A DNA stretch of 23,863 bases, taken from the IMG/VR virus record IMGVR_UViG_3300020474_000112, positions 1 through 23,863 of that record. One strand, given 5' to 3'. Numbering within the stretch: the first letter of the stretch is position 1; each line of letters starts with the position of its first letter. Positions 4,530 to 12,101 of the stretch are shown in pieces. The notes beneath the pieces are model-generated. The model searched no databases and had not been told where the DNA came from. It saw nothing but the letters and a program-made list of their open reading frames with translations. The translations under genes were made by a program, and so were the position numbers. This DNA comes from a virus.

Positions 4530-5906
4530 ATGACAGATTTAATTTCCCGTACAGGACGAGTCGAATCCTGGATGAAAGATCCTGCAGGACGCCTACCAGT
4601 TTCGTGTACGGTGTTCAATGTAGATAACTCAATGACCGGACCTGAGGGTATTGAGGCTAGCTGGATTTTTGCCAGTCATGCCCTGAGGTATGGCGCAGGT
4701 TGTGCTATCCACCTGTCTAAATTAGATCCGAAAGGATTTGTACGTCCTTCGGGAGTGGTAGCTTCAGGCCCTACGTCATTTGGACAGATATATTCTAAAC
4801 TAAATGAAATTCTACGCAGAGGTGGCCAATTCCGTAATGGTGCGATTGTGCTGCACCTCGATTTACTGCATCCTGATGCTCTTGAGTTTATTACTACACC
4901 TAGAGCACAATTACCTTGGGTTAAACGATGCATCAACATTACCACCGGTTGGTGGAAGAAATGCACGTTCAAAGAAGAGCTACTACAAGCGATCAAAGCT
5001 GGAGATGTCTGGCTAAACAAAGTACGACGTGATGAAAATGGTAAGAGAATTCGAGGCAATGTATGTCTGGAAGTATATCTACCTAGTCGAGGTACATGCT
5101 TACTTAGTCACGTAAATTTGGGCGCATGTGAACTAGAACAGATCCCTCAGGCATTTTTACAGGGGATGACTGAACTATGCGAACTACATGGGGAAACAGG
5201 TGTAGGTGATGACGGGCATTATCTCAAACCAGAAGATGACAGACAAGTCGGACTAGGGATGCTTGGTCTAGCCAATCTGCTAAAGCGACTTGGCATTACA
5301 TACAATGAATTTGCACAAGGTCTAGAAGATTACATTGCAAAGAAAGAGGCAGACACAGATGCTTACGATTTGGCAGCAAAGCTAGATAACGGCATTAAAT
5401 CAGCAGCCTTTCTGGCACGAACACATAATATGGTACGTGCATTCGCGATTGCCCCTACAGCTTCATGCTCCTACAGGAGTAAAGATAAAGAAGGATTTAC
5501 CTGTACACCAGAAATCGCACCCCCGATTGCACGTACTGTAGATAGGGATAGTGGAACCTTAGGAGTAGAAACTTATAATTATGGTGAAGTAGAAATTGCT
5601 TCAGAGGTAGGCTTTGAAGATTATACCCGTGTAGCAAACGGGATCATGCGCCTACTACAAGAGACGGGACTTGCACATGGTTATTCGTACAATTCATGGA
5701 GTGACTGCGTTACTTACAACGAAGAATTTATTGAGCAGTGGTTAGATTCACCCCAGACTTCCCTTTATTATTCCCTTCAAGTGATGGGAGACACTCAAGA
5801 TAAAACAGATGCCTATGCTGCTTTAGAAGAAGCAGAAGTAGATGATTATCTGGCAGAACTATTTAACGAAACACCTTTAGAACCAGAATGTGATTGTGCA
5901 GAATGA
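4530..5906 (+). CDS. nrdA: Ribonucleotide reductase class I, alpha subunit
   Basis: The 458-residue protein reduces ribonucleotides to deoxyribonucleotides. Active-site residues are visible: Cys26 (PVSC), Asn177/Cys179/Glu181 (GNVCLEV), and Cys190 (GTCLLSHVNLG). A Tyr pair at 413-414 (SLYYSLQ) matches the E. coli radical-transfer tyrosines, and the C-terminal CDC matches the reducing cysteines. The Tyr pair and the adjacent beta gene make this class I rather than B12-dependent class II, in line with the published reannotation of the similar cyanophage P60 enzyme. It is much shorter than E. coli NrdA (about 760), with no N-terminal ATP-cone, so activity regulation by dATP is likely absent. It overlaps nrdB by ATGA. 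Confidence 0.93.
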   Translation: MTDLISRTGRVESWMKDPAGRLPVSCTVFNVDNSMTGPEGIEASWIFASHALRYGAGCAIHLSKLDPKGFVRPSGVVASGPTSFGQIYSKLNEILRRGGQFRNGAIVLHLDLLHPDALEFITTPRAQLPWVKRCINITTGWWKKCTFKEELLQAIKAGDVWLNKVRRDENGKRIRGNVCLEVYLPSRGTCLLSHVNLGACELEQIPQAFLQGMTELCELHGETGVGDDGHYLKPEDDRQVGLGMLGLANLLKRLGITYNEFAQGLEDYIAKKEADTDAYDLAAKLDNGIKSAAFLARTHNMVRAFAIAPTASCSYRSKDKEGFTCTPEIAPPIARTVDRDSGTLGVETYNYGEVEIASEVGFEDYTRVANGIMRLLQETGLAHGYSYNSWSDCVTYNEEFIEQWLDSPQTSLYYSLQVMGDTQDKTDAYAALEEAEVDDYLAELFNETPLEPECDCAE

Positions 5907-6616
5907 ACCCTTATCAGAAACTACTAAACAGAAAAAGAAAATGGACACCAGTACAGACGACTGCTGGTACATGCAGGGAAGGTGCTCAGGAGACTCTCCT
6001 CCGTGCGCTTGCGTTGCGAAATATGGAACTACCTGTGGGAGATTTTATTGAAGATGCTTTGGCCAATGAAGTACCAGAGTTGGCACGGGAAGTGCTCACT
6101 TCCAATGTCACAGATGAAGAGAACCACGACTTGGCACTTGGTTACATTGCCAATGCTTACGGGACTGATCCAACTGCTGAGAAAGAAGCATTGGCGCTCC
6201 GAAATGCTTGGACGGCGCATCGAGATCACACGATCCTCAAAGCAATGGTGGCCGAACGTGCAATTTTCTTCGTTCTACTACCCTTCTTTAGGGCTAATGG
6301 TGACGCTGCATTTAGAACAGTCAGCGCAGATATAAGTAGAGATGAACAAATTCATGTTGCTACCAATAGCCTTGTTTGTCGGGAGCTGGGGCTTACTGTC
6401 AGCCCTAGTCTTGATAAACTCCGCAAGGCAACTATCAATTGGGTAATGCAACCATTAGGTAGCAATGCCAATAAATATTTAGACAAAAAATTCTGGCTAG
6501 ATTCTAGTGATCGATTGATGTACGAAGGGAAAGCGCCCGAATTGTCATTTACAAAATCAGCAAGAATGCCAGCATTTTTTGAACATAGCAATGTCAACCT
6601 CCCAAAATATGCTTGA
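5903..6616 (+). CDS. nrdB: Ribonucleotide reductase class I, beta subunit (compact)
   Basis: The 237-residue product is far shorter than typical NrdB (about 350), but has the ferritin-like metal site. VPELAREVLTSNVTDEENHD carries Glu72/His75 (ExxH), VAERAIF carries Glu118, and RDEQIHV carries Glu148/His151. The first carboxylate is probably Glu42. Aligned with E. coli, the radical tyrosine (four residues after the first His) falls on Leu79 in HDLALGY, so the subunit may lack a tyrosyl radical, as in the metal-only subclasses Ic/Id. A nearby Tyr81 leaves some doubt. ATG 5903 is chosen for the ATGA overlap with nrdA, which suggests coupled translation and matched subunit amounts. Confidence 0.88.
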   Translation: MNPYQKLLNRKRKWTPVQTTAGTCREGAQETLLRALALRNMELPVGDFIEDALANEVPELAREVLTSNVTDEENHDLALGYIANAYGTDPTAEKEALALRNAWTAHRDHTILKAMVAERAIFFVLLPFFRANGDAAFRTVSADISRDEQIHVATNSLVCRELGLTVSPSLDKLRKATINWVMQPLGSNANKYLDKKFWLDSSDRLMYEGKAPELSFTKSARMPAFFEHSNVNLPKYA

Positions 6617-10586: not shown

Positions 10587-10715
10587 TATGTGCAAAGTGA
10601 GATAGATCTAACAGAGAGGTGCAATTCCTCTCTTCACTATTGGCATTGGCCCCTTACGAGGGATACCCTTTGCCGTCTAGACGGTGGGAATAGACCACAA
10701 AAACTGAACGTTCGG
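10579..10715 (+). promoter_or_regulatory. Structured leader upstream of the capsid gene
   Basis: The region upstream of the capsid start has no other gene but holds a row of strong inverted repeats. These are GCACAT/ATGTGC (10579-10593, across the stop of the small gene), AGAGAGG/CCTCTCT with a 7-nt loop (10613-10633), CCCT-TACG-AGGG with a UNCG-type tetraloop (10651-10662), the perfect palindrome CCGTCTAGACGG (10673-10684), and CTGAACGTTCGG (10704-10715). An AT-rich spacer then leads to ATG 10751 with no Shine-Dalgarno sequence. In T7 the gene 10 leader holds a strong late promoter and an RNase III site. This leader could play a similar role: processing, mRNA stability or promotion. No promoter consensus can be derived from the window alone. 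Confidence 0.4.
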
Positions 10716-10750: not shown

Positions 10751-12101
10751 ATGGCACAACAATCTTCGGTTAATCCCGCTCAGCTAACTCAACTAGGCCA
10801 GTCTAATCTGGCTGGTGATAAGCGAGCTTTGTATCTTAAACTCTTCTCAGGAGAGATGTTTAAAGGCTTCCAGCATAACACGATCGCACGTGATTTGGTG
10901 ATGAAGCGTACACTTAAGAACGGCAAATCATTGCAGTTCATCTACACTGGACGCATGAGTTCAGAATTCCATACGCCTGGAAATAGCATCTTGGGTAACA
11001 CCGATGGCGCACCTCCAGTAGCTGAGAAAACAATCACCTGTGATGATTTGTTAATTAGTTCAGCGTTTGTTTATGAATTAGACGAGACACTTGCGCATTA
11101 TGAATTGCGTGGAGAAATCTCTAAAAAGATCGGTTATGCACTTGCAGAAAAGTATGATCGCTTGATCTTCCGTGCAGTTGCACGTGGAGCACGTCAGGCA
11201 TCCCCTGTAAGCGCAACGAACTTCGTTGAGCCCGGTGGTACTCAGATCCGTGTCGGCTCTACTGCAAACGATTCTGATGCGTTTAACGCTGACAATCTGA
11301 TTGCAGCCTTCTACGACGCAGCTGCTGCTATGGACGAGAAAGGTGTTTCAACTGATGGCCGCTGCGCCGTGTTGAACCCACGTCAGTACTACGAATTGAT
11401 CCAAGCTGTTGGTTCCAACGGTCTGGTCAATCGTGACGCTCAAGGTTCCGCACTGCAAAGTGGTAACGGCATCATCGAGATCGCTGGTATCCACATCTAC
11501 AAGTCAATGAACATCCCGTTCCTTGGCAAGTACGGTACTAAGTACGGCGGCACTACAGGCCAAGTATCTCCTGGTAACACTGGAGATTTCGTTGGACCTA
11601 CCATGGAAGATGCCTCTGGCGCTTCTACAGGCATCAACAATGACTACGGCACAGCTACCGAATTCGGCAGCAAGTCCTGTGGCCTTATCTTTCAAAAAGA
11701 AGCAGCTGGTGTTGTCGAGGCAATCGGACCTCAAGTGCAAGTAACCAGCGGTGACGTAAGTGTCATCTATCAGGGTAAATAACATTGCCCCTCTAATTGG
11801 CAACAGTTAGATAAACATCGGATGAATTCAGGGAAACCTAAGGCGAAAGCTATGGCAATCCTGAGCTAAGCCTCTCAAGCGTGAGAGGAAAGTGCATCGA
11901 CTAGGTGGTGTGACACGCTTGTCACGTAATACACCGATAGCGTCCGACAACCTTAAAGGTTGAAGATATAGTCAGTGCCATCAGAAATGATGGAATAACA
12001 CGGATGTCCTCCTGGGCCGCATGGCTCTGGGTGCTGACTACTTGAACCCTGCTGCAGCTGTTGAGCTGTACGTTGGTGCAACTGCACCTTCTTCCTTCTG
12101 A
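10751..12101 (+). CDS. gp10: Major capsid protein, two exons split by a group I intron
   Basis: The coding exons are 10751-11776 and 12003-12101; joined they give 374 residues. Exon 1 encodes the HK97-fold T7 gp10-type capsid protein (LAGDKRALYLKLFSGEMFKG, then TGRMSSEFHTPGNSILG, DGRCAVLNPRQYYELI). It ends ...GDVSVIYQG, where the frame would read Lys-stop. Exon 2 encodes DVLLGRMALGADYLNPAAAV, the conserved C-terminal end of cyanopodovirus capsid proteins, in the frame that continues exactly from exon 1 after removal of 226 nt. Hundreds of copies form the icosahedral shell. Unspliced mRNA would yield a 343-residue protein lacking the last 32 residues. Third codon positions are C/G-richer than in neighbours, as usual for highly expressed phage genes. 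There is no Shine-Dalgarno sequence. Confidence 0.95.
11777..12002 (+). ncRNA. Group I self-splicing intron (subgroup IA-like, no ORF)
   Basis: About 226 nt with the complete group I core. P1 pairs exon GGGU (11773-11776) with GCCC (11787-11790), with the U-G pair at the 5' splice site. P10 pairs ACAUU (11782-11786) with exon 2 GAUGU (12003-12007). P2 is UCUAA/UUAGA (11792/11807). P3 is UCGGA/UCCGA (11818/11943). P4 is UCAGG/CCUGA (11828/11860). P5 is capped by GAAA. P6 is CCUCUCA/UGAGAGG (11871/11882). P7 is GACUA/UAGUC (11899/11969), with the S-element text GAAGATATAGTC. P8 is CAACCU/AGGUUG (11948/11957). P9 is CCAUC/GAUGG (11978/11989). An extra GGUGU/ACACC hairpin between P7 and P3' suggests P7.1/7.2 and subgroup IA. 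The last base, 12002, is G. No homing endonuclease is encoded. Confidence 0.94.

Follow-up and report, generated by a model that had tools for sequence, protein, structure and literature searches.

Structure and spread of a compact group I intron in the major capsid gene of uncultured cyanopodoviruses

The major capsid protein (MCP) gene of an uncultured S-TIP37/P-SSP7-like cyanopodovirus is interrupted by 226 nucleotides which very probably constitute a complete, self-splicing intron of subgroup IA that carries no ORF and has been mobile recently. The sequence analysed (the window, a whole virus record of 23,863 bases and a metagenomic fragment) encodes a T7-like gene set comprising DNA polymerase A, 5'-3' exonuclease, ribonucleotide reductase, portal, scaffold, MCP and tail tube.

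Intron boundaries and the restored capsid frame

The MCP frame (10751-11782) stops early, after 343 codons in the ORF list, and translation of the window shows that the conserved C-terminus of the protein picks up again at 12003. Joining 10751-11776 to 12003-12101 gives an in-frame MCP of 374 residues, and in tblastn searches this spliced product aligned in one piece and end to end with the uninterrupted MCPs of S-TIP37 (84%), S-B28 and P-SSP7. The interruption lies after MCP codon 342, between G342 and D343. An Rfam search (cmscan), which the initial annotation had put forward as a check on the intron, matched RF00028 (Intron_gpI) at 11767-11994 with 107.4 bits (E=2.4e-27; curated cut-off 50 bits) over the full model, and this was the only Rfam family matched within the window. 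The early stop, the resumption of the frame and the RF00028 match agree with the boundaries 11777-12002 first proposed for the intron. The folded intron RNA was 4.1 s.d. more stable than dinucleotide shuffles, and none of 200 shuffles was as low.

Table 1. Positions of the capsid exons, intron elements and related features. Positions with no locus prefix are those of the window.
Feature	Position	Strand	Basis or remark
Exon 1, major capsid gene, codons 1-342	10751-11776	+	PHROG major head protein families; tblastn to cultured cyanopodovirus MCPs
P1: exon GGGU 11773-11776 with guide GCCC 11787-11790, U-G at 5' splice site	11773-11790	+	Pair counts; exon-guide compensatory change in L115
Group IA intron, 226 nt, no ORF, final G, in-frame stop as its second codon	11777-12002	+	RF00028, 107.4 bits; same-site homologues; pair counts
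P10, guide half ACAUU; partner is exon 2 GAUGU 12003-12007	11782-11786	+	Hand-drawn structure, pair counts
P2, GCAA loop (GUAA in others)	11792-11811	+	Compensatory changes in 5/8 pairs
P3 (11818-11824 with 11941-11947), enclosing P4, P5 (GAAA-receptor motif), P6 and P6a	11818-11947	+	Rfam, structure, pair counts
P7, guanosine-binding helix (11899-11903 with 11969-11973); 3' part within GAAGATATAGTC 11962-11973	11899-11973	+	Invariant throughout
P7.1 and P7.2, insert between P7 and P3	11904-11935	+	Compensatory changes in 7/10 pairs
P8	11948-11962	+	Pair counts
P9, GAAA loop	11978-11993	+	Compensatory changes in 4/6 pairs
Exon 2, major capsid gene, codons 343-374 and stop	12003-12101	+	Spliced frame; tblastn alignment
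MCP intron near codon 35	L254		Site cut by contig end
MCP intron in codon 73 (site A)	L335, L338, L254		Guide-exon pairing test supports position
MCP intron at 115/116	L155, L231, L266, L300, L281, L307		Guide-exon pairing test supports position
MCP intron at 211/212	L133		Guide-exon pairing test supports position
MCP intron in codon 213	L343		Guide-exon pairing test supports position
MCP intron at about codon 338 (site D)	L333		Junction hand-placed from sequence and expected protein
Glutamine-II riboswitch matches	L133:1830-1885, L120:3431-3483, L112:142-194, L121:1482-1567, L110:186-240		Rfam

A structure running from P1 to P10, with P6a, P7.1/P7.2 and the P3/P7 pseudoknot, was drawn by hand and its pairs were counted on 13 distinct sequences of the intron from the window and its relatives. 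Of 907 cells for the 70 named pairs, 99.4% were paired, and 29 of these pairs showed compensatory (two-sided) changes, as compared with 11.9 in shuffles and at most 5 when the structure was slid. Covariation was seen in P2, P3, P5, P6, P6a, P7.1, P7.2, P8 and P9, while P4 and P7 were invariant. The P3/P7 pseudoknot is present together with P4-P6, P8 and P9, which is the architecture of a group I intron. The U-G pair at the 5' site, a guide forming P10 and a terminal G occur in 13 of 13 distinct sequences, with P10 shortened in L157; these features and the element GAAGATATAGTC had been read from the window in the initial annotation, and all were borne out by the drawn structure and the pair counts of the relatives. 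In L115 the exon codon is CAA rather than CAG and the opposite guide base has changed from C to U, an exon-intron compensatory change in P1. A 4-bp P1 with a U-G pair is not in itself above chance, being reached by around 50% of shuffles, and the helix is significant because it is conserved and covaries across relatives.

Beyond the features first described, P5 contains the 11-nt GAAA-receptor motif, and P2 and P9 carry GNRA loops; by analogy with established group I architecture, the P5 receptor may dock with the GAAA loop of P9. The intron was assigned to subgroup IA because P7.1/P7.2 lie between P7 and the 3' strand of P3, an insert which is typical of that subgroup.

In the late transcript, P1 and P10 would line up both exons on the internal guide, P7 would bind exogenous guanosine, and two transesterifications would join G342 to D343 and so restore the 374-residue capsid protein. 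Translation of unspliced mRNA would end at the second intron codon and give a product of 343 residues. Splicing itself is predicted from the sequence, and the conservation of pairing together with the compensatory changes is strong comparative evidence of selection for it. The anatomy of the gene and this selection on pairing strongly imply that the capsid mRNA would depend on splicing.

Two further features of the window were observed. Just 5' of the MCP start, a leader (10592-10700) is conserved in cyanopodoviruses with and without the intron. It contains a hairpin resembling a tRNA T-arm, with compensatory changes in 5 of 6 pairs in 12 sequences, followed by UUGGC...GCCGUC..GACGGUGGGAUAGACCACA; no Rfam or tRNA match was found for the leader. 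In several relatives, though not in the window, Glutamine-II riboswitch matches precede the MCP gene by a few hundred bases. At 259-2099, DNA polymerase A is divided between two frames, one for its exonuclease part and one for its polymerase part, which meet near 800 (790-813); this one-base offset is either a sequencing error or a real frameshift.

Distribution at codon 342/343 and at other sites

Eighty MCP relatives from IMG/VR were compared at the insertion site. The gene was uninterrupted in 76, and continuous in L026 and L028, which have a motif match elsewhere in the locus. Of the remaining two, L033 is cut short near the site and L055 is interrupted between the same two codons by an equally long intron, which matches that of the window at 215 of 226 positions although the exons are only about 80% identical. 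Pattern scans found 20 loci besides the window, the 13 distinct sequences (222-227 nt) including that of the window, and an additional same-site intron of 228 nt in L337 brought the total to 21 further IMG/VR loci (222-228 nt). Every one of these introns has CA(G/A)GGT immediately before it and G as its last base, and its removal restores the same frame; exon 2 is conserved and in frame in every carrier. RF00028 was matched above the cut-off in the records of 20 of 20 other carriers. GGT at the 5' site was partly required by the search pattern; a core-only scan and a GGN scan again recovered capsid carriers with GGT only.

The first codon of exon 2, which formed no part of any pattern used for finding carriers, is GAT in all 21 intron-bearing genes and in 41 of 80 intronless ones, and the excess was also seen in independent phylogenetic pairs (5.7 to 0 on average, median p 0.03). 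A tyrosine codon three positions upstream, intended as a control, was likewise skewed (18/21 against 24/80), so the exon codon signal extends beyond the paired bases. This skew would also be explained by co-conversion of a short stretch or by preference for a target. The cultured cyanopodovirus MCPs examined were uninterrupted, with no intron. Two other candidates were rejected: the two-piece match to the MCP of P-SSP2 (L159:1435-2748) is due to an in-frame protein insertion of around 64 residues relative to the window MCP, and a weak intron match in L156 was judged to be chance.

The distribution at this single site is patchy and the intron has spread horizontally. Its presence requires 12 changes on the MCP DNA tree, with 11 of the changes forced by well-supported branches. 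L002 is intronless though its exon-1 protein is 98% identical, and its DNA about 91% identical, to that of the window, and it is otherwise collinear at the site. One piece of a BLAST match had hinted at a recombination boundary at the intron, but this was rejected, as identity to L002 is 86-92% through exon 2 and drops only after around 12300. The introns of the window and L092 are 99.6% identical whereas their exon-1 flanks share 78% identity, and horizontal spread is concluded because such near-identical introns sit in genes with this level of divergence. The MCP of L157 is only 51% identical, yet a long identical core is shared. Intron and exon distances correlate (r 0.63), and therefore both vertical descent and transfer have occurred, in addition to selection on the core; the high conservation of the intron may in part be due to ribozyme selection instead of transfer. 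An exact match to the core, a narrow test, was found in none of 84,980 cellular genomes.

A core pattern independent of the gene was also run over 2.9 million viral contigs and matched 26 stretches, 20 of them in T7-like MCP genes; five of these 20 were new, four of the five being at other sites. Such other-site introns, found with the core pattern, a covariance model and Rfam, are given in Table 1, and the MCP genes of L133, L155 and L254 each have two introns. The introns cluster by site, and those at A (73), D (338) and E (342/343) lie close together, the pattern that would result if introns seldom reached a new site and then spread there. An MCP intron elsewhere was present in 6 of 100 loci chosen for an intact site E, a rough figure and not an estimate of prevalence. 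It seems likely, on these data, that one small endonuclease-free group IA lineage has colonised about seven sites of the cyanopodovirus MCP gene (near codons 35, 73, 115/116, 211/212, 213, 338 and 342/343), sometimes two per gene, and that, in the wild, a minority of cyanopodoviruses depend on splicing of the capsid mRNA, with no trace of this in cultured relatives.

Route of movement and alternative readings

The frequent gain and loss of the intron, its movement between diverged cyanopodoviruses at 342/343 and the sister introns at other MCP sites suggest an element which is mobile now or was so recently. No ORF of at least 50 aa is present inside the 226-nt window intron. HNH_3 and GIY-YIG were not found in the carrier records, which are mostly fragments, and no member of the three families searched for, HNH_3, GIY-YIG and HNH, was found near the MCP in these records. 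Two of the longest carrier records (G010 and G024) encode an HNH gene far from the MCP. It was rejected as a private homing enzyme of the intron, since isolates that lack the intron, S-TIP37 among them, have close homologues of it. Since the intron encodes no endonuclease, we infer that it most likely spreads via an endonuclease acting in trans or by recombination in mixed infection.

A different route, in which movement occurs mainly by RNA reverse splicing into the capsid mRNA followed by reverse transcription and recombination, is unlikely but deserves consideration. The lack of an ORF in the introns and of HNH_3 and GIY-YIG in the carrier records would be consistent with it, as would the clustering by site with A, D and E akin, and guides which match the local exon at several sites. 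The flanking exons also diverge within a few bases of the insertion; as this is so close to nearly identical introns, co-conversion was short or absent, which again fits reverse splicing. However, reverse transcription in cyanophage infection is not established, and since most carriers are fragments a free-standing endonuclease may lie elsewhere in their genomes. Furthermore, an endonuclease acting on the site of a cyanophage psbA intron is known (Zeng, Bonocora and Shub 2009, as cited in PMC9860041). A trans-acting endonuclease or recombination is accordingly the route favoured here, and the question concerns only how the intron moves.

Whichever route was taken, the interruption could be read in other ways. 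Splicing might be deliberately incomplete, with the 343-residue form having a function of its own as a minor capsid protein, in a loose parallel to T7 gp10A/10B. The unspliced frame does stop early in the intron and would give a capsid protein of near-full length, but its tail is not conserved, ending immediately in the window and running for several more residues in L094 and L337, and the closest relatives (L002) manage without it, which makes this role very improbable. Slightly less probable still is a degenerate group I intron which does not splice, so that a truncated capsid protein of 343 residues is made or the allele is defective, as all helices are intact, the compensatory changes across relatives include the exon-guide pairing, and exon 2 has not decayed in any carrier. 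That the insertion arose in assembly, as an artefact or a chimera, is scarcely credible even for a metagenomic fragment such as the window, and is refuted for the family: 21 other contigs, drawn from many samples, have it at this codon too, with differing sequences and compensatory changes.

Significance and comparison with known phage introns

A self-splicing group IA intron in this position would make ribozyme splicing a step in the production of virions by wild ocean viruses. The capsid gene is also used as a marker for cyanopodoviruses, and the introns break up gene calls in it and can cause surveys based on this gene to miss carriers. With many close pairs of intron-plus and intron-minus genes, several sites, and guides matched to local exons, the family amounts to a natural experiment on the spread of introns which have no endonuclease.

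Group I introns are known from the psbA genes of cyanophages S-PM2, S-CBWM1 and S-SRM01. That of S-CBWM1 has a core in common with the window intron (74% over 78% of the intron), but these introns interrupt a photosystem gene of myoviruses, and those of S-CBWM1 and S-SRM01 contain endonuclease ORFs (PMC8557907). The nearest DNA matches among cultured phages are compact group I introns of Vibrio and Klebsiella phages (e.g. vB_VpaM_R16F and phiKp_21; 77-78% over 68% of the intron); these phages are unrelated, the matches involve no annotated capsid gene, and the intron ends are unmatched. In T7-like podoviruses, group I introns occur in DNA polymerase genes (e.g. phiL7, as cited in PMC10580990), which is another gene and another site. 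Ribonucleotide reductase introns have also been described (PMC3653736).

Two observations on other genes were made in the present data. A group I intron is present in the ribonucleotide reductase gene at L211:2640-2870, on the same record as L120, a virus with a capsid intron; the counterpart of this gene in the window is at 5894-6616. Group I introns with a similar core also occur in another gene of other viruses (L334, L336, L339, L340 and L341); upstream is an ORF resembling a homing endonuclease, and around 2 kb away there is a further, partial match to an intron.

The initial annotation cited no earlier case of an intron in a cyanopodovirus capsid gene, and no published description was found in the literature searched, which was largely that outside subscription; the invasion of one gene at several sites by small introns in uncultured cyanopodoviruses appears to be undescribed so far. 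Capsid introns are known from other phages: that of mycobacteriophage LittleE (Cluster J) was shown to splice by RT-PCR and N-terminal protein sequence (PMC3706429), and the same paper cites one in Tuc2009. As in the window, the LittleE element is a probable group I intron in a phage major capsid gene with U before it and G at its end, and it splices efficiently late in infection (PMC3706429). In contrast, it is 819 bp long with an endonuclease ORF, is found at a single site, and belongs to an unrelated phage of a high-GC Gram-positive host. Because phage capsid introns of this kind are known, a single intron in the window is less surprising than the initial annotation held, and the larger surprise is the family at several sites of one gene, which lay beyond its view.
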